Of a DNA stretch of 32,062 nucleotides, positions 1,490 to 18,958 are shown piece by piece (positions within the stretch are counted from its first letter, which is position 1; each line of letters opens with the position of its first letter). A program made the translations under genes and the position numbers. The notes below the pieces were generated by a model. It was given only the letters and a program-made list of their open reading frames with translations, ran no database searches and was not told the DNA's origin. Source of the stretch: a virus; the IMG/VR virus record IMGVR_UViG_3300049846_000905, positions 1 through 32,062 of that record. One strand, 5' to 3'.

Positions 1490-1517
1490 ATATTATTGGC
1501 GCGCGAAATTTCGTCAA
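1490..1517 (-). promoter_or_regulatory. Leftward early promoter
   Basis: On the minus strand, TTGACG (1517-1512) and TAATAT (1495-1490) are separated by 16 bases. This is a good sigma-70-type promoter. Transcription would start near 1482, about 20 bases before the ATG at 1463. The boxes and spacing are identical to those of the rightward promoter. Confidence 0.7.
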
Positions 1518-1600: not shown

Positions 1601-1628
1601 TTGACGCAAAGGCGTCGGGGGCTAATAT
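1601..1628 (+). promoter_or_regulatory. Rightward promoter of the repressor gene
   Basis: TTGACG at 1601-1606, a 16-base spacer, and TAATAT at 1623-1628. The expected start of transcription (about 1635-1637) coincides with the A of the repressor ATG at 1637, and no Shine-Dalgarno sequence precedes that ATG. The message is therefore probably leaderless or nearly so. Confidence 0.7.
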
Positions 1629-4266: not shown

Positions 4267-4784
4267 CCCTCGAACAAAAAATCCAAACGCTGGCTAAGCT
4301 TCGCGACCAGTTCTGCCGTGACTGCTGCAACGCCTCACCGCCGGAGCAGTCTCCAATCGAGGCGACATTCTCTTGGGCAATGGCCTGCATTTTTGAAGAA
4401 ATCGGTGGGGGCCAAACACAGGAGAACGAGCCGGCCACACTCGATGAACTCGATGATTTAGGGTACAACCTCGGGCACACGGCGCCATTTCATACCTACG
4501 TTTTTTCTCAGGTGAAGATCGATCGCTATCGCGTCGATTTCTTACTGGCGCACCGTAACGGCGGCGACACAACCGTCCGGTTCGCAGTGATCGAGTGCGA
4601 TGGTCATGATTTTCATGAGCGCACCAAGAAGCAAGCAGAACACGACAAAAAGCGGGATCGTCGGTTGCAGGAACTAGGTTACCCGGTTCTCCGTGTCACA
4701 GGTTCGGAGATTTGGCGGTCGCCAGTGAAGACCGCGTTCGACGTGTACGTCTCCGCGCTCAAAGCAATGGGTGCGCGCTCATGA
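4263..4784 (+). CDS. PD-(D/E)XK nuclease, DUF559/Vsr-like
   Basis: A 173-residue protein. The C-terminal half (about 85-155) has the DUF559/Vsr-like nuclease order: YRVDFLL with Asp92, AVIECDGHDFHER with Glu111 and Asp113, a conserved D-K-K-R-D-R-x-L helix at 128-135, then LGYPVLRVTGSEI. Asp113 takes the place of the usual Lys of the ExK motif, as is common in this subgroup. The N-terminal half is helical with a CRDCC cluster at 18-22. It may act in recombination, repair or attack on host DNA. It is coupled to both neighbours by ATGA overlaps. The ATG at 4263 was chosen because of the overlap. Confidence 0.85.
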   Translation: MTLEQKIQTLAKLRDQFCRDCCNASPPEQSPIEATFSWAMACIFEEIGGGQTQENEPATLDELDDLGYNLGHTAPFHTYVFSQVKIDRYRVDFLLAHRNGGDTTVRFAVIECDGHDFHERTKKQAEHDKKRDRRLQELGYPVLRVTGSEIWRSPVKTAFDVYVSALKAMGARS

Positions 4785-5740
4785 CCAACCGTCGCCCCAC
4801 AGCTTTCATGCCGCTTTGGATTGGTGATTATCTTGCCGACACCACTCATCTGACGACGGAGCAACACGGCGCCTATCTCTTATTGCTCATGGCGTATTGG
4901 CGCAGAGGTGGTCCTCTAGCCGATGACGATCAGTCCCTTTGCCGCATTGCTGGCGTTACCATCTACAAATGGCGAGCGCTACGCTCAGCAATCGCACCGT
5001 TCTTCGCGGTTGAGGGTGGTCTCTGGGTGAGTAAGCGCGCTGATGAGGAGTTGGCGAAGGCTGAAAGCAAGTACGAGAAGCGCGCATCAGCCGGCCGCAA
5101 GGGTGGGCAAGCATCGGCCGTAAAAGGGAAGCGTTTGGCGTACTCGGCTCCTGTAGCGGCTAGCGCGCCGTTGCCAACAGTTTCCGACGTGGCCGATGCG
5201 GTTGTTTTGGCGGAAATAAGCCAATCGCACCATAGCAATGCTGTAGCAACGCCGCCAGCAAACGAGCAGCAGTCACAGTCAGAGAGTTTAAGAACTACCG
5301 ATAGTTCTAGTTCTCAGAGTCAGAGTTCCGAAGCTAACGCTTCGGGACCAACTGGTCCTGTCGAGCCTTTTTTCGATTTGATAGCCATGGACCCGGTAAA
5401 AGACCTCTGGGGCTACGCCATCCCCCTGCTCGTTCGATCGGGCCGTGACGAAAAAGGCGCGCGGCGATTTTTAGGCAAACTTTGCAAGACCTACGAGGCT
5501 GCCGACGTGCTCGATGCTTTCGAGACGGCGGAAACGAAATCGGCACCAGACCCTGGCGCCTACGCGGCAGGGGTTCTCACACGCAGATCATCGAAGAAGG
5601 TTTATTTCAATGGTAAAGCAACTTCGGGACAGTTTGGGCGTAATCGGCAAATCATTGACGACCACCCCCTCGGGAACTTCGCTGCCATCGGCGATCGAAT
5701 CCGCGCTGCGAGCGAAGGTGGGTTCACGTTTGACGCCTGA
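4781..5740 (+). CDS. DUF1376 (YdaU-like) replication protein
   Basis: A 319-residue protein. Residues about 8-75 match DUF1376: AFMPLWIGDYLADTTHLTTE, then GAYLLLLMAYWRRGGPL and a Cys-Arg-Ile-Ala-Gly. It is a winged-helix-type domain found in phage replication proteins that sit where lambda O does. Residues about 165-205 are a low-complexity Ser/Gln linker encoded by repeated AGTTC and CAGAGT words, and the C-terminal part (about 208-319) is a second globular domain. It probably acts at the origin or recruits host helicase; the exact role is inferred. It overlaps the upstream stop (ATGA) and the next gene by 131 bases. Confidence 0.8.
   Translation: MTNRRPTAFMPLWIGDYLADTTHLTTEQHGAYLLLLMAYWRRGGPLADDDQSLCRIAGVTIYKWRALRSAIAPFFAVEGGLWVSKRADEELAKAESKYEKRASAGRKGGQASAVKGKRLAYSAPVAASAPLPTVSDVADAVVLAEISQSHHSNAVATPPANEQQSQSESLRTTDSSSSQSQSSEANASGPTGPVEPFFDLIAMDPVKDLWGYAIPLLVRSGRDEKGARRFLGKLCKTYEAADVLDAFETAETKSAPDPGAYAAGVLTRRSSKKVYFNGKATSGQFGRNRQIIDDHPLGNFAAIGDRIRAASEGGFTFDA
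5291..5308. repeat. Inverted repeat and AGTTC repeats inside the DUF1376 gene
   Basis: AGAACTA (5291-5297) and TAGTTCT (5302-5308) form a perfect 7-bp inverted repeat with loop CCGA. Further AGTTC copies follow within about 25 bases, along with CAGAGT direct repeats. This block encodes the flexible Ser-rich linker and is lower in GC than its surroundings. The layout resembles the iterons inside lambda O, but origin function is only a hypothesis. Confidence 0.45.
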
Positions 5741-6371: not shown

Positions 6372-6863
6372 ATGTGGTACGCAGTTTCGGTAACACCGCG
6401 CTACGAGATTGATACCGCCAAGCGAATTTCCGAATCGGGTGTCGTTGCGTACTGTCCGACCGTCGAAAAAAAATACCGCCAGCGGCGTCACGTGGCAGAG
6501 TTTTCGCGGGTTAAATTCCGGCCGCTGTTCGGGGGGTATATTTTCATCCAGCCGGACGCGTCGTTTCGTAAAGATGCCTTTGAGGATTCACGGACCAAAC
6601 TAATTGTTTGGTGGCGCGTCAGGGTTTCGGAACAACAAATGGACATTGTGCGAGAGACGGAAACTGCGCTGGCGGAAGCGGCGAAGAAAACCCCCGGCGG
6701 GGTGATCGTCCGTGCCGGCGATGTTGTGGCTTTGCGCAATGCACTGTTCGCTGGCGAGAGCTTGCAGGTTTTAGAGGTTCGGAAGAACAAGCTCGTGGTA
6801 CAATCGGCGCGAATGGTTCGGCCGGTTACGGTCAAGGCAGATCAAGTGGAGCGGGTGGCGTGA
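6372..6863 (+). CDS. NusG-like (NGN/KOW) transcription factor, candidate late antiterminator
   Basis: A 163-residue protein. The NGN domain is at residues 1-60: it opens with WYAVSVTPRYE, contains VVAYCPTVEKKYRQRR, and ends with the diagnostic RPLFGGYIFIQ. A KOW-like domain lies at about 112-163 (VRAGDVVALRNALFAGESLQ, ending VKADQVERVA). NusG and its paralogues (RfaH, LoaP) bind RNA polymerase beta-prime and change pausing and termination. A phage copy just before the late genes is where lambdoid Q or P22 gp23 sits. The inferred role is therefore read-through of late transcription. GGAG precedes the ATG. It is coupled to the next gene by GTGA. Confidence 0.85.
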   Translation: MWYAVSVTPRYEIDTAKRISESGVVAYCPTVEKKYRQRRHVAEFSRVKFRPLFGGYIFIQPDASFRKDAFEDSRTKLIVWWRVRVSEQQMDIVRETETALAEAAKKTPGGVIVRAGDVVALRNALFAGESLQVLEVRKNKLVVQSARMVRPVTVKADQVERVA

Positions 6864-7459
6864 CGGATTTGCAAATGAAGCGGCACAACTGGTTCCCTAG
6901 CCGTCACGGCGTTGACGAGTGCGCGGTGTGCAGTCAGCCAGACTTTCCCGAGGTTGGAATTTTCTGCCCTGGCCCCAAGCCAGCCACCCCGGAGCCTGAT
7001 TTGGTCCGCATCGGTCGCCTGGGTCAGCAGGCTTACGGCCGCGCTGTCGCTGCGATCGTGAACGCCCCCAAGCCACCCACCACAGAGGCTCCGGCAGCAG
7101 CCCTTGAGGGCATGATCTGGCACGACACGACAGCAAACAAGATCGTAAAGCGCGTCGGTGGCGAGTGGGTTGACCGGGACGACAGGGAGTTTTTCGACGG
7201 CCCACAATGGGACACCCCGCGCGACCCCATCACCGACTTCATAGCCCGGCGGGTGGCAAGGCGGGGAGCCACGATGGCAGTAGATTTGGTAAAGCAGCCG
7301 TTTGGGTCAGGGCGCAAGCCTTGGCCTAACTCCCTACTGCACGAAGAGGACCAGTTAAAGTTAAAACGTAGGGACGAAGATTTGGACCGCGCCATGTCCA
7401 CCCCCAACCCACACGACACAGACATTCACACGCGGCTGATGCCGTACAGGGGGAAGTGA
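6860..7459 (+). CDS. Hypothetical protein with N-terminal Cys cluster
   Basis: A 199-residue protein. GTG at 6860 overlaps the NusG-like stop (GTGA); an ATG at 6875 is the alternative. Cys21, Cys24 and Cys36 (CAVC and IFC) may bind zinc. A middle segment, LEGMIWHDTTANKIVKRVGG, resembles the GLxWHDT element near the start of the tail fibre at 28249. That element is common in phage structural proteins and is probably a small beta unit. The C-terminal part is basic and hydrophilic. No membrane segment. It ends the early operon. Function not recognised. Confidence 0.65.
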   Translation: MTDLQMKRHNWFPSRHGVDECAVCSQPDFPEVGIFCPGPKPATPEPDLVRIGRLGQQAYGRAVAAIVNAPKPPTTEAPAAALEGMIWHDTTANKIVKRVGGEWVDRDDREFFDGPQWDTPRDPITDFIARRVARRGATMAVDLVKQPFGSGRKPWPNSLLHEEDQLKLKRRDEDLDRAMSTPNPHDTDIHTRLMPYRGK

Positions 7460-7659
7460 GTCCCGTCGCACATGAAACAAATACTCCGACCCGGTGCGCA
7501 ATTTTCAAAAAGTCCAAATCCCCCAGCTAAATTAACCAAGCATTAACTTAGGGACAGTATGACTCATCCCCGGCCACTGGAAAGTCTGCCTCGCGCACAT
7601 CCAACCCAGCGGACGGGTTCCACCGTTCCGCACGTTCGGCCCAACCATGACCCGAGTCC
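7460..7659. other. Non-coding interval between early and late regions
   Basis: About 200 bases without a convincing gene. Bases 7500-7560 are clearly AT-richer than the rest and hold an imperfect palindrome. A frame starting with ATG at 7559 is Pro/Arg/Ser-rich, lacks a ribosome site and is rejected. The position fits a late promoter or a binding region for control of packaging genes. No good -35/-10 pair was found. Confidence 0.5.
7527..7551. repeat. AT-rich dyad upstream of the packaging genes
   Basis: CTAAATTAA (7527-7535) and TTAACTTAG (7543-7551) are inverted with 8 of 9 matches and a 7-base centre. The word ATTAAC also recurs directly 11 bases apart, one helical turn. This is the form of a dimeric repressor or activator site. 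Weak -35-like TTAACC and -10-like CAGTAT words overlap it. Confidence 0.5.
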
Positions 7660-7905
7660 ATGCAGCGCGAACAGGTCACATTCGCTTTTCCCGCCCCGCG
7701 CCCAACCGATTGGGCATCCACGATGTGCCTGCTCCCGATTGCTCAGCAATGGGCCAAGGTCTGGCGCATCGAAGATTTCAAGGTGGGATGCCTTGCGGAT
7801 AAGCACGACCGTCACGCCAAAGAGATGACAGGCCGCACCCCGGCGCACCTATCTGCTGGCAACACGGTCACTGTGTTGATTGAGGGCTGGGCGGAAAAGG
7901 AATAG
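7660..7905 (+). CDS. Hypothetical small protein
   Basis: An 81-residue frame with no clear Shine-Dalgarno before the ATG at 7660; an in-frame ATG at 7723 gives 60 residues and is equally possible. The C-terminal 60 residues have normal composition (IAQQWAKVWRIEDFKVGCLA, then NTVTVLIEGWAEKE), which is why this frame is preferred over the overlapping 7559 frame. No family recognised. It precedes the small-terminase candidate. Confidence 0.45.
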   Translation: MQREQVTFAFPAPRPTDWASTMCLLPIAQQWAKVWRIEDFKVGCLADKHDRHAKEMTGRTPAHLSAGNTVTVLIEGWAEKE

Positions 7906-7934: not shown

Positions 7935-8198
7935 ATGGCGAAGGGCAAAAAAACGGGAGGGCGCGTCGCTGGCACGCCAAACAAATCCACAGCCGATATT
8001 AAGGCTCTCGCGCAAAAGCACACAGACGGGGCCATTGCCGAATTGGCCCGCCTTGCTGTGGGCGCTGAGAGCGAAGCAGCGAGAGTGTCAGCAATTAAGG
8101 AATTGCTTGATCGCGGGCACGGTAAGCCAAGCCAGCAGCTAGAACACACGGGCACCGTCAAGATTAGCCATGAACAAGCCCTTGAGGAGCTTACCTGA
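7935..8198 (+). CDS. Small terminase subunit candidate
   Basis: An 87-residue protein with a basic Gly-rich start (KGKKTGGRVAGTPNKSTAD) followed by a helical region (ALAQKHTDGAIAELARLAVG). This N-terminal type is frequent in small proteins directly before the large terminase. The gene ends 29 bases inside the large terminase gene. It would recognise the packaging site and feed DNA to the large subunit. It is much shorter than P22 gp3 (162 residues), so the call rests on position and general look. Confidence 0.6.
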   Translation: MAKGKKTGGRVAGTPNKSTADIKALAQKHTDGAIAELARLAVGAESEAARVSAIKELLDRGHGKPSQQLEHTGTVKISHEQALEELT

Positions 8199-9741
8199 CC
8201 GCGAGAGGGAAATTCGGCAGCGTCTCAAAGACGATTTCGCCCACTACGCGCCCCGGTGCCTCAAGGTCAAAACGAAGGTTGGCGGAATCGAGCCATTCGC
8301 ACTCAACGAAGTGCAACTGCACCTGCATGAACGTCTAGAGGCGCAACGCAAGCGTACCGGCAAGGTGCGCGCGCTCATTCTCAAGGGTCGGCAGCAAGGG
8401 TGTTCTACCTACGTTTCGGGCCGGTACTACTGGCGCGCAACGCACCGCAAGGGTTGCCGGGTTTTTATCCTCACCCACAGTCAGGACGGTACGGACCACC
8501 TTTTTGGGATGGTCGATAGGTTTCACGAAAACTGCCCGCAGATTGTTAGGCCGGTGACGGGTACGGCCAGCGCAAAGGAGCTTAGCTTTTCGGCGCTCGA
8601 CTCCGACTATCAGGTAGGTACGGCCGGCTCAAAGGCGGTTGGTCGATCGCAGACGATCCAGCTATTTCACGGGTCTGAGGTCGCGTTTTGGCCGAACGCT
8701 GATAGTCACGCCGCTGGCGTTATGCAGGCGATACCTGACGCGCCTGGGACAGAGGTCATTCTGGAAAGCACGGCGAACGGGCTCGGGAACTACTTTCAGA
8801 CGCAATGGGCGAAAGCTGAGCGGGGGAGCGGGGATTTCGAAGCCATCTTCGTGCCCTGGTATTGGTCGAAGGAATACCGGCGCGCGATTCTGCCTGATTT
8901 CCAACTGACGGCAGAGGAACGCGAATACGCCGACGCTTACGGCCTCGACAGCGAGCAAATGGCCTGGCGCCGCAATAAGGTAGCCGAGCTAGGGTACAAT
9001 TGGCTTTTCCGGCAAGAGTACCCTGCGACGGCGAGCGAGGCGTTTCAGGCAGGTGGTGATGGGTGCTTCATTCGCCCCGAACTGGTTTTCAAGGCTCGCA
9101 AGTTCAATGCGGGCGACGCGGGCGGGCCGCTTGTGGTCGGGGTTGACCCAGCGCGCGGCGGCGGCGATCGGACAGGCATCATATCGAGGCAGGGGCGTGT
9201 AGCGGGGCGGTTGGTTTGCGAGACGCTCGACACGGATGACCTGATGACAATTGTTGGCCGGTGCGTTCGCATTATCACTGAGCACAATCCGGTGCTGATG
9301 AACGTGGACGTTACCGGGCTTGGGGCTGGCGTGTACGACCGGCTCAAAGAGTTGGGTCATGCGGGGCCGGGCAAGCCGGTGAAGCCGGTGAACTTTGGCA
9401 GCGAGGCGACGCAACGCGAACGGTTCGCCAACAAGCGGGCCGAAATGTGGGACGACAAGAGGAAGTGGTACGAAGAGCCGGCCGGTGTGTCGGTTCCTGA
9501 CCGTGACGACCTACAGGCAGACGAGTGCTCTGTACAGTGGGGCAAGGGCGCGACGCGGTTCGATAGCAGCGGGCGCCTTGTGCTCGAAAGCAAAGATCAT
9601 ATCCGCGAGCGCATGAGCCTTTCGCCTGATCTGGGTGACGCATTGGCTCTCACGTTCGCCTTCCCTGTGGCCGCGAACATGGCCCAGGTGAAACTCTGGA
9701 CGCCACCGCCCGCCACCGGGCAATCATGGATGGGCCGCTAG
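8170..9741 (+). CDS. Large terminase subunit (packaging ATPase and nuclease)
   Basis: A 523-residue protein with the usual length and order. The ATPase domain has a Walker-A-like LKGRQQGCST (71-80), a Walker-B-like LFHGSEVAFW with catalytic Glu170, and the coupling motif ILESTANGLG (197-206). The RNase-H-like nuclease has GVDPARGGGDRT with Asp326, MNVDVTGLGAG with Asp380, and a C-terminal SPDLGDALALTF. It packs DNA into the prohead through the portal and cuts it when the head is full, together with the small subunit upstream. The portal gene begins at the base after its stop. No damage seen. Confidence 0.95.
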   Translation: MNKPLRSLPDREREIRQRLKDDFAHYAPRCLKVKTKVGGIEPFALNEVQLHLHERLEAQRKRTGKVRALILKGRQQGCSTYVSGRYYWRATHRKGCRVFILTHSQDGTDHLFGMVDRFHENCPQIVRPVTGTASAKELSFSALDSDYQVGTAGSKAVGRSQTIQLFHGSEVAFWPNADSHAAGVMQAIPDAPGTEVILESTANGLGNYFQTQWAKAERGSGDFEAIFVPWYWSKEYRRAILPDFQLTAEEREYADAYGLDSEQMAWRRNKVAELGYNWLFRQEYPATASEAFQAGGDGCFIRPELVFKARKFNAGDAGGPLVVGVDPARGGGDRTGIISRQGRVAGRLVCETLDTDDLMTIVGRCVRIITEHNPVLMNVDVTGLGAGVYDRLKELGHAGPGKPVKPVNFGSEATQRERFANKRAEMWDDKRKWYEEPAGVSVPDRDDLQADECSVQWGKGATRFDSSGRLVLESKDHIRERMSLSPDLGDALALTFAFPVAANMAQVKLWTPPPATGQSWMGR

Positions 9742-12126
9742 TTGGCACGCAAGAGCAAGCGCAGGGTTCCGCTGCCTCCGATGGAGATGGGCGGCGAAGG
9801 CGGCGAGAGCGCGGCTAACCCCGTGTACAACGACGCTGCCGAGCCCGTCGAAGACGACGAGCCCAAGGTCACGAAGGGTAAGCGCCTCACTGACGAGGAA
9901 ATGAAGCTCGCCCGTGAGCGGTACGAGCGCGGCATCAGCCGCGAGCAGGACAACCGCGAACAGGCGCGTGAGGACTTGCGCTTCAAGGTAGGCGACCAGT
10001 GGCCCGAGGCTGAACTGAAGCGCCGCGGCGATCGGCCGGCGCTGGTGTTCAACCGGATGCTGTCGTTCGTGCGTCAGGTCACGGGCGATATTCGGCAGAA
10101 CAAGCCTGCCATTCGCGTCCGCCCCAACGGGGACGGCGCCGACAAAGACACGGCTGAGATGTTCGCGGGCCTGATCCGCAACATCGAACAGCAATCCCAT
10201 GCGGGCTACATCTATGCCCAAGCGGCAGACGCCGCCACAAGCTGCGGGTTCGGGTATTTCCGTATAGTCACGGAGTACACAACGGCAGATAGCTTTGACC
10301 TGGACATCCGGCTCAAGGGAATCCCGAACCCGCTTTCTGTCGTGATCGACCCGGATGCGATGGAGCTTGACCGCTCCGACGCCCGGTGGATGTTCGTTTA
10401 TTCCACGCTCCCGAAAGAAGATTTCAAAAAGCAGTACCCGAAGGCGCAAATCCAAGACTTTGAGAAGCTGGACAAGGGCCTTGGCGGGTCGTCCTACTCG
10501 GATTGGTTCACATCGGACGGCGTTCGCATTGCGGAATACTGGTGCAAAGAGCCCTGCACCAAAAAGATTGCGATGCTCTCGGACAACCGGGTGATCTGCC
10601 TGGATGACTACGACGACGACAAGCTGGCCGAGATGATGGCCGGCGCAACGGTCGTTCGCACCCGCGAAGTGAAGACGCACAAGGTCGTTCAGCACATCAT
10701 CTCGGGTGCCGAGGAACTGGAAGACCCGACCGAATGGGCCACGGACGACATTCCGATCATCCCGGTTCTTGGCGAGGAAACCCACGTTGACGAGAACCGC
10801 GTCTCGTATGGCCTGATCCGGTTCGCGAAAGACCCGCAGCGGGCGCTAAACTACGCGCGGTCCACCTCGATCGAGGTCACGGCCCTACAGCCCAAGGCTC
10901 CGTACAAGCTGAGCGCGGCAATGATTGCCGGGTTTGAGCAGATGTGGAACAACGCAGGTTCTGTAAATTACCCGTATCTGTTGTACAATTCAGACCCGAA
11001 CATGCAGGGGCGCGCACCAGAGCGCGAACAGCCTCCGGTTCCTGCCGCTGGCCTGATCACAGAAGCGCAGATGGCCGCCGACGACATGAAGTCGATCACG
11101 GGCATCTACGACGCTGCCCTGGGCGCAAGGTCGAATGAGACAAGCGGACGCGCGATCAATGCCCGGAAGGAAGAGGGCGACGTATCCACGTTCGTCTACA
11201 TCGACAACCTGGCGCTGGCTATCTCATGCGCCGGCCGGCAGCTTATCAAGCTGATACCGAAGATTTACGACACCAAGCGCGTCCTGCGCGTGCTGTACGA
11301 TGACGGCACCGAAGAGAGCGTTAAGGCGAACGTCCCAGGCGTTGGCCGTAACGGTCAGATGAGCGTCATTCACGATCCGAAGCGCGGGTTTTACGACCTG
11401 ACCGTGGGTAAGTATGACGTGGTGGTTGAGGCAGGCCCAGGCTTCACGACGCGGCGCCAGGAAGCGGCCGAAGGCATCATGGAAATGATGCAGATACTCG
11501 GGCCCGCAGCGGCGCCGTTGCTTGGCCCCCGATTGGCGCAGTTGCAAGACTGGCCCGGCGCGACCGACATTGCCAACGACATGAAGAAGCTACTGCCGCC
11601 GCAGTTGCGTGATCCTGAGACGGGCCCGGACGGTCAGCCCTTGCCCCCGCCGGAACCGCCGCCAGACCCTGAGACGGTCAAGGCGCACGCTCAGATGCAG
11701 GTAGCCGAACGCCAGCACCAATTCGAGGTCGCCAAGGCACAGGACGATATGCAGCTTGCCCAGCAGAAGCAGCAGGCGGAATTGCTTTTGGCTCGCCAGC
11801 GCGCCGAAGCTGAGGCGCAACTAGCCCGCGACAAAGCAGAATTCGACATGCACCTGGCTGCGTTCAAGGCTCAGCAGCAAACGCAACTGGCCGCGCAGTC
11901 TCAAGCTGCCCGAACGGCGCTCGATGCGCGCGAGCAAGCCGAGCCCGAACCCAAGAGCGAGCCTGCTGCGGATATTGCGGCAGTGTTCAGCGCGCGCATT
12001 GAGGAATTTCTGGGCCGCATGGAGCAGAACAGCCGCCCACGCAAGCGCATCTTGCGCACGCGCCGGGATGTGGATGGCAACCTGATCGGTGAGGAAGAAT
12101 ACGTTGACGAGCAGGCTGGTGCGTAG
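9742..12126 (+). CDS. Portal protein, P22 gp1-like
   Basis: A 794-residue protein (P22 gp1 is 725). Landmarks of the P22-type portal: an N-terminal charged segment, FKVGDQWPEAELKRRGDRPA near residue 85, RPALVFNRMLSFVRQVTGDI, and GARSNETSGRAINARKEEGD near residue 465 before the crown region. Residues about 640-740 are a Gln/Ala-rich coiled coil matching the long C-terminal barrel helix. It forms the dodecameric ring through which DNA passes. The TTG at 9742 directly follows the terminase TAG; an ATG at 9781 is an alternative. The next gene overlaps by one base. Confidence 0.93.
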   Translation: MARKSKRRVPLPPMEMGGEGGESAANPVYNDAAEPVEDDEPKVTKGKRLTDEEMKLARERYERGISREQDNREQAREDLRFKVGDQWPEAELKRRGDRPALVFNRMLSFVRQVTGDIRQNKPAIRVRPNGDGADKDTAEMFAGLIRNIEQQSHAGYIYAQAADAATSCGFGYFRIVTEYTTADSFDLDIRLKGIPNPLSVVIDPDAMELDRSDARWMFVYSTLPKEDFKKQYPKAQIQDFEKLDKGLGGSSYSDWFTSDGVRIAEYWCKEPCTKKIAMLSDNRVICLDDYDDDKLAEMMAGATVVRTREVKTHKVVQHIISGAEELEDPTEWATDDIPIIPVLGEETHVDENRVSYGLIRFAKDPQRALNYARSTSIEVTALQPKAPYKLSAAMIAGFEQMWNNAGSVNYPYLLYNSDPNMQGRAPEREQPPVPAAGLITEAQMAADDMKSITGIYDAALGARSNETSGRAINARKEEGDVSTFVYIDNLALAISCAGRQLIKLIPKIYDTKRVLRVLYDDGTEESVKANVPGVGRNGQMSVIHDPKRGFYDLTVGKYDVVVEAGPGFTTRRQEAAEGIMEMMQILGPAAAPLLGPRLAQLQDWPGATDIANDMKKLLPPQLRDPETGPDGQPLPPPEPPPDPETVKAHAQMQVAERQHQFEVAKAQDDMQLAQQKQQAELLLARQRAEAEAQLARDKAEFDMHLAAFKAQQQTQLAAQSQAARTALDAREQAEPEPKSEPAADIAAVFSARIEEFLGRMEQNSRPRKRILRTRRDVDGNLIGEEEYVDEQAGA

Positions 12127-14492
12127 TGGCTATCAGTCACGCATTCACCAACCCGGTCGCAGACGGCACGGTAACGTCTATTGTCCGGCCGAGCGATTGG
12201 AACAGCGCTCACTTTCAGTACATGAGCGTGGCCGGCAACACAGCCGGGCAGTCCACGTTCTCCGGCACGAATATCGTCATTGGCGGCGGCGCGAATATCA
12301 CGCTGTCCGGGGTCAACGCGACCCGGTTTGACATCGTTGGCGGCGCAGGCGCTGCGGGTAATACCGGATCAATCAGCGCCGGCACGACGCGCGGCACGCT
12401 TGGCGAGATGGTGTTCTCGAACTCGAACGGGATATCGTTCGGGATCGACGGGCAGACGCTGACGGCGCAGCACAACGCGCTGACGACGGCACGGGCCAGC
12501 AACGACGCGGTTGGGCTGGCGACCGCTCAGTCGAATGTGACGTGGACCGTCAATAGCGCGGGGCTCAGCCTCGATGCGCGCGGCTACGCAGGTACGGCCA
12601 CCACATTTAACGGGGCCAACCTGTCAGGGTCCATGACGGTTAACAGTGCCGGGGTTAACCTGTCGCTGAGTGCCGGGAACTACCTCACCACGGCGAGGGC
12701 ATCTAACGACGCGATAGGGCTCAACACAGCCCAATCGAACGTCACCTGGACGGTAAACAGTGCCGGCCTGTCGCTGGACGCCAGGGGTTATGCCGGGACT
12801 GGAACGACCTTCAACGGGGCCAACATCTCCGGCTCGCTCACGGTCAACTCCAACGGGGTGCAGGTTTCGGCCAGCGTGGCGACGAGCCTGAGCAATATCC
12901 GGGTTTCGGCCGGCACCACGTCGAACCTGCTGAGCGCGGTTACGTTTGCAGATGGCAATGGCGTCTCGTTCGGCCTCAATGCCGGGACAGTGACGGGTAG
13001 CCACAACGGGCTGACTTCGCAGTCGAATCAGAACGTCACGGCGTCAAACGGCGGTTTCGCGTTTCAAACCCTCTCGTTCTCGAATGCGAACGGGCTCAGC
13101 TTCGGGACAAGCGCGGGCTCGGCGATCATTGCCAGCTACACGGTTCCGACCGTCACAAATTCGAGTTGGACCGTCTCGGACAATGCGAGCAGCGCTACGG
13201 TGGCGCGGTTGGCGTTCACCAACCTGAACGGGGTAACGCTCAGCCTCTCGACCGGGGCAAACGGGTCGCACACGATCGTCGGGTCGCACAATGCGCTCAC
13301 GAGCCAGTCAAACCAGGCATTCAGCGCGGCTGGCGGATCGTCGGCGTTCCAGACGCTGGGCTTCAGCGACACCAACGGGGTCAGCTTCTCGAACTCGAAT
13401 GGCTCGGTTGTCGCCACGGTTCGCACAAACTACGCCAGCAGTGTGCACGGGCATACCCTGTCGGCCTTTGCCGTCTCGAACACGACGCAATCGTCGAGCG
13501 GGACCATCGACATGGCAAACGTCTCGTTTGCTGGTGCGGGCGGGGTTTCGGTTGGTGTCTCGAATGGTTCGGTTGTTATTTCCGCTGCGGCTGGCGGCGG
13601 CGGTACGACGAACCAGACAGGCCCGAACATCGGCGTGTCGAACCTGGGCAATACGGCAGGCTCGACAGGAACGGTGTCAACCGGAAACGTGGTGCTGGTT
13701 GGTGCAGGTGGCATAACGCTCAGCCAATCGACTGGCGCAGTCGGGAGCGACGCCACGGTGACAATTCAAGGCGACGCAAAGACGATTTCGTCGCTTTTGC
13801 TGCAACCGTTTGCCGGGATGGCGGCTGGGATACCGTTCGCGCAAAGCTCGATTTCACTAGGGCAAAATTCGCTTTACCTTTACCCGTTCCAGTTAGAGGA
13901 CCACCTCACCGTCGATCATGCCAAAATTCCGGTGATGGTCACGCATTCTAGTTCGGCTGCCGCAAGTGTGCAAAAGGGGTACACATACCGGCTCGGTCTC
14001 TATTCCTACGCAAACTCAACGCAGCTAAGCCAACTCTACTCAACCAGCCACACGATGGCGGCGTCTCACAATTCCAACGCCTCGTGGATGGTCTCGATGA
14101 TCACGGCTATCGGGAACTCGACGAGCTACAACACGCTTTCAGCGTCTAGCGCAGGCTTGAACCTGTCAGCATCTCTGCATGGGCCGCGAGAGTTCATTCT
14201 GCCTATATCGACGCTGCTAACGCCTGGGCAATATGTGGTCGCACTAGCGGCTTCGACATCATCGGTTGGCGCTGGCGGCTCCATTTTGAACCTGTCCAAT
14301 ATCGTGGTGGCGGTGCAGACATTTAACCGCCCCGGTCTTTCGACCAACACAACAAACCGCGCTTTCTACAACGATGCTGGAATGGGGCTTTACTCGACGA
14401 CGACGGGCGCAATGCCAGCATCGATCGGCATGACCCAAATCAACCAGAACGGCACGCAGCCGCTTCTGTTTCTCGGTTCCGGAACGGTTTAA
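12126..14492 (+). CDS. Large repeat-rich fibre-like structural protein
   Basis: A 788-residue protein with a GTG start overlapping the portal stop. It is rich in Ser, Thr, Asn and Gly, with almost no Cys. The N-terminus (ISHAFTNPVADGT, then IVRPSDWNSAHF) is followed by many short beta repeats of the form NGVSFG...GS and SHNALTSQSNQ. Two adjacent 68-residue units start near codons 119 and 187. Residues after about 560 form a different C-terminal domain. This composition fits an extended trimeric beta-structured fibre or decoration protein. P22 has nothing here between portal and scaffold. It stands next to the glycosyltransferase and methyltransferase genes and could be their substrate; that is inference. 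Confidence 0.75.
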   Translation: MAISHAFTNPVADGTVTSIVRPSDWNSAHFQYMSVAGNTAGQSTFSGTNIVIGGGANITLSGVNATRFDIVGGAGAAGNTGSISAGTTRGTLGEMVFSNSNGISFGIDGQTLTAQHNALTTARASNDAVGLATAQSNVTWTVNSAGLSLDARGYAGTATTFNGANLSGSMTVNSAGVNLSLSAGNYLTTARASNDAIGLNTAQSNVTWTVNSAGLSLDARGYAGTGTTFNGANISGSLTVNSNGVQVSASVATSLSNIRVSAGTTSNLLSAVTFADGNGVSFGLNAGTVTGSHNGLTSQSNQNVTASNGGFAFQTLSFSNANGLSFGTSAGSAIIASYTVPTVTNSSWTVSDNASSATVARLAFTNLNGVTLSLSTGANGSHTIVGSHNALTSQSNQAFSAAGGSSAFQTLGFSDTNGVSFSNSNGSVVATVRTNYASSVHGHTLSAFAVSNTTQSSSGTIDMANVSFAGAGGVSVGVSNGSVVISAAAGGGGTTNQTGPNIGVSNLGNTAGSTGTVSTGNVVLVGAGGITLSQSTGAVGSDATVTIQGDAKTISSLLLQPFAGMAAGIPFAQSSISLGQNSLYLYPFQLEDHLTVDHAKIPVMVTHSSSAAASVQKGYTYRLGLYSYANSTQLSQLYSTSHTMAASHNSNASWMVSMITAIGNSTSYNTLSASSAGLNLSASLHGPREFILPISTLLTPGQYVVALAASTSSVGAGGSILNLSNIVVAVQTFNRPGLSTNTTNRAFYNDAGMGLYSTTTGAMPASIGMTQINQNGTQPLLFLGSGTV
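12480..12878. repeat. Tandem 204-base coding repeat in the fibre gene
   Basis: Unit 1 begins at 12480 and unit 2 at 12684, so the period is 68 codons. The proteins are nearly identical over the first 55 residues (both begin LTTARASNDA and share TAQSNVTWTVNSAGLSLDAR). Over the first 39 codons, 37 encode the same residue, yet only about 7 codons are the same triplet. The repeat is therefore strong in protein and weak in DNA. Confidence 0.85.
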
Positions 14493-17671: not shown

Positions 17672-18907
17672 ATGGCAAACGCCCTAATTACCCCTACCGT
17701 CATCGCGAAGCGCGCGTTGATGAACCTCGACAACAACCTCGTGATGGGCAATCTCGTCTATCGCGACTACGACAGCGAATTCGGCCCGACCAAGATCGGC
17801 GATACCGTTACGATCCGCCGGCCGAATGACTTCACCGTCACGGACGGCGCCACGCTGAGCATCCAAGACCACACGGAAGGCTCGCTGACCATGCAGATCA
17901 GCAAGCGCAAGCACATTTCGTTTGTGTTCTCCGACTCCGACCTGACGATGACGGTTGACGACTTCGACAAGCGGTACATCAAACCGGCAGCAATCCAGCT
18001 CGCCAACCAGATCGACGTTGACCTGATGACGGCCGCCTACCAGGCGACCAACAATTGGGTGGGCACGCCGGGTCAGACGATCAACAGCCACGCTGACTTC
18101 CTGAAGGCGGTGGAGCGCCTGGACGTTCTCGCGGTGCCGCAAGGCGACCGCGCGGCCGTTCTGTCGCCGAACGACCATCACGGCTTGGCCGGCAACTTCT
18201 CCGGCATCTACATCCAGGGAGTCGCCGGGGATGCGCTGAAACAGGGCAAGCTGCCCATGATCGGCGGCGTCGATCCGTACATGACGCAGAACGTGGCGGC
18301 GCACACGGTCGGCGCACATGGCGGCACACCGCTGGTACGCGGCGCGGCGCAAAACGTCACGTATGCGTCGGTCAAAACGACCATGACGCAGACGTTCCAA
18401 ACGGACGGCTGGACGGTTGATTCGGGCTTGAAGGCGGGCGACGTGTTCACGATTGCGGGCGTGTACGATGTCAACCCGGTCACGAAAGCGACACTGCCGC
18501 ACTTGAAGCAGTTCGTGATTACGACCGATGTCACGACCACGAACCCGAACACCAACGCAACCGTGCTGACGATCTACCCGGCGATTATCTCATCGGGTGC
18601 GTATCAGAACGTCAGCGCAGCTCCGGCGGACAACGCGGCCATTACCTACGTGGGTACGGCCTCGACGATCTACCCGCAGAACCTCGTGTTCCACCGCAAC
18701 GCCTACGCGCTTGCGATGGTGCCGATTGCGCAGGCGCCGAGCGGCGCGGGCGTGTCGCAGTCCACTGAGCGCTACAAGGGGCTGTCGCTCCAGTGGTCGG
18801 CTCAGTACGACATCACGAATGCGCGCATGATCTACCGCCTCGATGCCATGTACGGCGTCAAAGCGATCGATCCGCGCCTTGGCGTTCGTGCAAGCGGTAC
18901 GTCGTAA
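17672..18907 (+). CDS. Major capsid (coat) protein, P22 gp5-like
   Basis: A 411-residue protein (P22 gp5 is 430). Family landmarks: ANALITPTVIAKRALMNLDN at the start, VYRDYDSEFGPTKIGDTVTI, the SDSDLTMTVDDFDKRYIKPA segment and ANQIDVDLM of the long spine helix, then VLSPNDHHGLAGNFSGIY and MTQNVAAH. This is the HK97-fold P22 subfamily with an inserted domain. It assembles on the scaffold into the prohead shell. AGGA precedes the ATG. A hairpin terminator follows, which could set the relative dose of the downstream genes. Confidence 0.95.
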   Translation: MANALITPTVIAKRALMNLDNNLVMGNLVYRDYDSEFGPTKIGDTVTIRRPNDFTVTDGATLSIQDHTEGSLTMQISKRKHISFVFSDSDLTMTVDDFDKRYIKPAAIQLANQIDVDLMTAAYQATNNWVGTPGQTINSHADFLKAVERLDVLAVPQGDRAAVLSPNDHHGLAGNFSGIYIQGVAGDALKQGKLPMIGGVDPYMTQNVAAHTVGAHGGTPLVRGAAQNVTYASVKTTMTQTFQTDGWTVDSGLKAGDVFTIAGVYDVNPVTKATLPHLKQFVITTDVTTTNPNTNATVLTIYPAIISSGAYQNVSAAPADNAAITYVGTASTIYPQNLVFHRNAYALAMVPIAQAPSGAGVSQSTERYKGLSLQWSAQYDITNARMIYRLDAMYGVKAIDPRLGVRASGTS

Positions 18908-18915
18908 CAACAAGC

Positions 18916-18947
18916 GGGCGGGGTCGCGTTGGCCCCGCCCTTTCTTT
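18916..18947 (+). terminator. Intrinsic terminator after the coat gene
   Basis: Perfect 8-bp GC stem GGGCGGGG (18916-18923) / CCCCGCCC (18933-18940), a 9-base loop, then TTTCTTT. It sits 8 bases past the coat stop and before the next gene. Read-through, perhaps helped by the NusG-like protein, would be needed to reach tail and lysis genes from an upstream late promoter. Confidence 0.8.
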
Positions 18948-18958
18948 GAGGGCAAAGC

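Follow-up and report, generated by a model that had tools for sequence, protein, structure and literature searches.

Whether a NusG-family gene carried by a phage shortly upstream of its packaging genes acts as a late antiterminator was the question raised by this locus. Antitermination control of late genes has been worked out with lambda Q, 21Q, Xp10 p7 and a small number of other regulators, and to our knowledge none of these is NusG-like. Phage genes of the present kind have been named antiterminators by annotators through homology only. Prophage-borne rfaH-like genes are mentioned in reviews, which name LoaP, RfaH, UpxY, TaA and ActX and leave out phage late control. The open-access literature, to which the search was confined, yielded no paper in which phage NusG paralogues are described as regulators of late genes, and the novelty of such a reading is regarded as provisional.

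Gene layout around the NusG paralogue

The window, that is the whole stretch of DNA analyzed, was an entire IMG/VR virus record, linear and 32,062 bases long. A putative early promoter (TTGACG-N16-TAATAT, 1601..1628, +) stood next to a Cro/CI-type HTH gene, and a divergent twin with the same hexamers and spacing was located at 1490..1517 on the - strand. No further exact copy of the pattern occurred in the window, and a search ahead of the late genes gave no third promoter of this kind. The two promoters, which lie beside the HTH gene, enclose a short AT-rich sequence containing inverted repeats, and this stretch (1490-1628) looks like a lysis-lysogeny or early operator. From the 1601 promoter, the genes on the + strand encoded a DNA methylase, a DnaA-C-type HTH protein, a REase_MTES_1575-family protein, the early DUF1376/primosomal-type replication protein (4781..5740) upstream of the NusG paralogue, an unknown protein, and the NusG paralogue itself (6372..6863), followed by a coupled ORF, a gap and a small ORF. 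The order then continued from 7935 with the terminase small subunit (7935..8198, PHROG 2538), the terminase large subunit (TerL) as the first large late gene (8170..9741, PHROG 2), the portal protein (9742..12126, PHROG 156), the major head protein (17672..18907, PHROG 283) and the connector. This terminase-head-tail operon of about 24 kb was on the + strand throughout. A 788-aa protein encoded at 12126-14492 contained many degenerate SNSNGVSFG-like repeats, had no PHROG match, and is possibly a fibre or appendage.

The initial annotation took the NusG-like gene to close the early region, which was nearly accurate, as two ORFs lie between it and the terminase genes, and these count against a late role. 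The first (6860..7459, +, 199 aa) contained a CxxC motif, had no family match, showed codon-position GC resembling that of neighbouring genes, and overlapped the nusG stop (GTGA), through which it is probably translationally coupled to nusG. The second (7660..7905, +, 81 aa) had coding-like codon-position GC and is probably a genuine small gene ahead of the small terminase gene. The 200 nt between them (7460..7659, +) formed the only sizeable non-coding gap from the NusG paralogue to the terminase genes, and were considered a candidate late leader or recruitment region.

The NusG-family protein and its position in relatives

The ORF at 6372-6863 (+) started with ATG, ended with TGA and encoded 163 aa, with GGAG about 8 nt 5' of the ATG. 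Pfam NusG matched residues 2-64 only (E 4.5e-8, 33.9 bits, cut-off 22.2), and PHROG 6386, "transcription antiterminator", matched residues 2-161 (E 6.2e-9); the latter family is matched by housekeeping NusGs of cellular genomes too. It was also the sole PHROG match, and no homology to Q was detected in the window protein. The KOW half was unscored by Pfam, yet it aligned with phage and host NusGs (GDVVALRNALFAGESLQVLEV), with G116, G124 and F126 nearly invariant. In the AlphaFold2 model, based on 29 aligned sequences, the NGN domain (about residues 1-70) was predicted mostly with pLDDT of about 90 apart from some weaker stretches, residues 70-102 were disordered, and the degenerate KOW domain (about residues 108-163) was predicted as a beta-barrel with pLDDT of about 83-93, from an alignment whose housekeeping NusGs bias the result to a barrel. 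NusG, Spt5 and RfaH were the top Foldseek matches of the model, with low global TM-scores because the relative placement of the NGN and KOW domains is not fixed in it. Among solved structures, E. coli NusG (7e-49) and RfaH (5e-15) were matched by a profile built from host NusGs together with phage paralogues.

With both NGN and KOW found, membership of the NusG/Spt5 superfamily is secure, and the phage-borne NusG paralogue recognized at 6372-6863 by the initial annotation was confirmed by Pfam, PHROG 6386, the structure searches and the model. Its description of the KOW landmarks as clear was slightly generous, since this domain was present but degenerate. The best NCBIfam match was UpxY (47.8 bits, residues 2-155), below the cut-off of 100, and the curated LoaP and RfaH models gave only 17.4 bits (cut-off 125) and 16.9 bits (cut-off 144.5), respectively. 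Judged from these sequence models, the protein belongs to none of the named subfamilies (UpxY, LoaP, RfaH). In the paralogue tree its branch was very long and its placement weakly supported, too weakly for a claim about its origin. Owing to this long branch and to an identity of 15-28% to other phage paralogues, transfer of function by homology is weak.

With the window protein as query, no relative was found in GenBank phage records, where only marginal matches appeared up to E 10, or in IMG/VR. A motif search from an 8-sequence alignment was dropped, because the sequences were too diverged. Relatives were reached instead with TerL, portal and coat proteins and with NusGs of other phages as queries. 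The window TerL as query retrieved 62 viral loci, and a NusG domain was detected in 3 of 49 whole records of TerL relatives, in all three upstream of TerL on the same strand; NusG was undetected in the other 46 records, a point against a late role, although many of them are fragments. In one of the three, locus L008, the NusG-like protein (22-576) had an NGN domain but no recognizable KOW motif, and it seems to lack that half.

Annotated NusG-like genes were present in Rhizobium phage vB_RleM_PPF1 (PPF1_91), Agrobacterium phage Rivra (gp65), Nostoc phage Nsp-JY10 and Synechococcus phage Yong-L2-223, in each case close 5' of the terminase region with short ORFs or an HNH gene between, and Bradyrhizobium phage ppBjS10J-1 carried one annotated only as hypothetical. 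A Rhizobium-phage-type set of 44 IMG/VR loci was obtained from Nsp-JY10. TerL was found 1.2-2.7 kb downstream of nusG on the same strand in 33 of these, and by profile in 7 more (40/44 in total, counted as statistically non-independent loci and not as events), while the remaining 4 contigs stopped 0.1-2.3 kb past the nusG-like gene. All five Bradyrhizobium-type relatives had the gene upstream of terminase on the same strand. Among them, L133 resembled the window in the types of its TerL, portal (39%) and coat (49%), L136 in those of its portal (40%) and coat (42%), and both showed the order of the window, namely nusG, coupled small ORF, gap and terminase. A NusG paralogue likewise preceded terminase in L029, L075 and L044. 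Terminases of several Pfam/PHROG families were linked in this way, the TerLs of the Rhizobium-phage-type loci being of different families (GpA-type, TerL_ATPase-type) and many of them only 24-45% identical to the reference TerLs, so the linkage between NusG and the late operon outlives terminase exchange. A further NusG-like protein was encoded at 485724-486203 of GenBank LR745206, a 635-kb uncultured phage record, and matched the L029 paralogue with E 2e-5.

Leader RNAs and terminators

In the Rhizobium-phage type, a conserved, foldable non-coding block of about 145 nt, named R1, started about 17 nt past the nusG stop. It was located at 10674-10860 in L107, ahead of an intrinsic terminator, and at the corresponding place in L076-L119, L067, L069, L071 and L132. 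Mean column identity was 84% over 27 distinct sequences. RNAalifold predicted 34 pairs, of which six were changed on both sides; double-change cells numbered 29 versus 12.0 in shuffles, a level reached by none of the 500 shuffles, and when the partners were shifted by one column, pairing fell from 98% to 41-44%. Local hairpins were paired with differing sequences, such as CGCAC/GTGCG, CACAC/GTGTG and CGCC/GGCG, and the L107 leader fold had a z of -2.96. The R1 covariance model also matched PPF1, Rivra and Nsp-JY10, each directly 3' of nusG, and one of 297 genomes of Mesorhizobium's order, there too directly after a NusG-like gene. Against Rfam, R1 gave nothing at the gathering cut-off, and its sub-threshold matches were far below the cut-offs of the families. 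An intrinsic terminator followed R1 in 33 of 35 distinct leaders; the corresponding rates were 1.7% for shuffled sequences and 12% for stretches taken at random from these loci. R1 is probably an antitermination or recruitment element.

A different conserved non-coding block of about 60 nt (GCAAATCAG...CGGCCGGT...TTTCACCCGCCGGGTGGCTTGTG) was found in the Bradyrhizobium-type leaders, between the nusG-coupled ORF and terminase, at about 10738-10800 in L073 and at the same place in L133, L134, L135 and L136. Strong leader terminators were present in at least two of five Bradyrhizobium-type loci. The L029 leader also had a terminator, whereas its close relative L075 had none by the same test.

In the window itself, searches for R1, for the Bradyrhizobium-type block and for the L029 leader found none of them, and the R1 covariance model found nothing in the window's terminase relatives. 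No intrinsic terminator was detected between 6863 and 7935, the RNA structure of the gap at 7460-7659 was not unusual (z -0.33), ops-like motifs at up to 3 mismatches numbered 55 in the window versus 54.5 expected by chance, Rfam gave no match to the window at the gathering cut-off, and no pR'/qut/tR' arrangement was seen in it. The late antiterminator proposed in the initial annotation was thus supported in one part, a NusG paralogue in the lambdoid Q slot, which several phage lineages reuse, and lacked another in the window, where a leader terminator, a structured leader and an above-chance ops signal were all absent.

The initial annotation had further pointed to an intrinsic terminator after the coat gene as a place for read-through control. 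The hairpin is real: the terminator-like feature lay at 18916..18948 (+), with a hairpin of 11 pairs, 9 of them G-C, and then TTTCTTTGAG, placed at 18916-18940, and was the only strong + strand intrinsic terminator seen across the whole transcription unit. Hairpins after the coat gene were also present in L002, L040 and L043, whose whole records contained no detectable NusG. Because NusG-less relatives carry similar hairpins, this one is weak evidence, and its role as a NusG-specific control point was set aside. It is a possible read-through target, but its role may simply lie in coat stoichiometry or in protection of the mRNA end. Across diverged relatives, with or without NusG, a GC-rich hairpin of differing sequence recurred behind the major head gene, perhaps as a device for coat stoichiometry or mRNA stability.

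Proposed late-operon role and comparison with known systems

Our preferred reading, which we hold to be probable, is that the window gene encodes a specialized NusG paralogue acting as the late-operon antiterminator, performing a Q-like job by a NusG/LoaP-type mechanism. The paralogue would be produced late in the early phase with the downstream late operon as its target, and its NGN domain would bind the clamp helices of the host RNA polymerase elongating into the terminase-head-tail operon. The polymerase would then resist pausing and termination through the remainder of the operon, and the paralogue would thereby substitute for lambda Q. We infer polymerase binding from knowledge of the family, and read-through and late-gene specificity are likewise ascribed to the window protein by inference. 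Gene position and the comparison with relatives both speak for an elongation factor dedicated to the late operon, and the case for a late antiterminator is good for the Rhizobium-phage type. For the window, the case rests on position and fold, which limits our confidence to a moderate level.

The main rival for the window, to which we give a minor share of belief, is a general anti-silencing or processivity factor, which would compete with host NusG for RNA polymerase across the whole phage genome and remove NusG-stimulated Rho termination with no late leader site. It would explain why neither a recruitment signal nor a leader terminator was found in the window and why the exact promoter pattern occurs only at the divergent early pair, and with a single strong + strand terminator (18916), Rho-dependent polarity may be the main obstacle to transcription. 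A dedicated target is indicated, however, by two features of other lineages: the constant placement of the gene directly 5' of the late operon and, in one of these lineages, the pairing of R1 with a terminator. An RfaH-like coupling factor, which would mainly tie RNA polymerase to the ribosome and promote late mRNA translation with little effect on intrinsic terminators, seems improbable: the two-domain layout is the same, the KOW barrel is predicted with confidence and RfaH is among the Foldseek matches, but the RfaH model scored far below its cut-off and the ops signal was at chance level in the window. Horizontal capture of nusG is common in principle, yet a pirated housekeeping copy with no special role, or a host shut-off factor titrating RNA polymerase, is highly improbable given an identity of only about 21-25% to aligned housekeeping NusGs and the retention of a single small gene in the same slot, adjoining late operons, across several lineages.

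Beyond the window, the late-antiterminator reading can be extended, tentatively and with somewhat less belief, to a widespread phage late switch, in which NusG paralogues replace Q in alphaproteobacterial and some cyanobacterial phages with lineage-specific leaders, the R1-terminator of Rhizobium phages would be a LoaP-like module, and the window would represent a divergent case whose recruitment site has escaped recognition. If phages repeatedly recruited NusG paralogues, the most conserved transcription factor family would double as a late switch. Many phage genes whose only label is "NusG" or "antiterminator" would thereby gain a function, and the late transcription start would be marked in many alphaproteobacterial prophages. 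R1 RNA would offer a compact, testable target for the recruitment of NusG paralogues to RNA polymerase in proteobacteria.

Among known systems, the phage NusGs of PHROG 6386 (PPF1_91, Rivra gp65, Nsp-JY10) occupy the window's slot before terminase, but differ from it by the presence of R1 RNA, by belonging to other sequence lineages and by annotation through homology only. RfaH and ActX have NGN and KOW in common with the window protein, which lacks an N-terminal extension. In the structural comparison with RfaH suggested initially, RfaH was among the Foldseek matches, and the C-terminal domain was modelled as a barrel rather than a helical hairpin from an alignment biased to the barrel. The window protein differed further by its score below cut-off and by ops motifs not above chance. 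The paralogues LoaP, TaA and UpxY adjoin operons under their control (PMC7819879). UpxY of the Bacteroides capsule operons adjoins an operon as the window gene does, although its biology is different and upxY is placed first in the operon that it targets. LoaP of Bacillota, known from the difficidin operon of Bacillus velezensis, is likewise a NusG paralogue beside its operon, as the window gene lies beside its presumed target operon; LoaP depends on a hairpin in the leader and lets transcription continue past a terminator located there (PMC12691694). Its dfn leader, a folded RNA with an intrinsic terminator, is like the Rhizobium-phage-type leader and unlike the window, but the LoaP element is a small UNCG hairpin whereas R1 is multi-helical and about 145 nt long, and LoaP serves antibiotic operons whereas the paralogues described here belong to proteobacterial and cyanobacterial phages. 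By analogy, R1 and its terminator would constitute a LoaP-like leader at the site that Q occupies in lambda. The gene for lambda Q has the same place as the window gene, being the last or nearly last early gene, on the same strand and directly 5' of the late packaging genes; the two proteins are unrelated, and NusG-type recruitment would be expected for the window protein.
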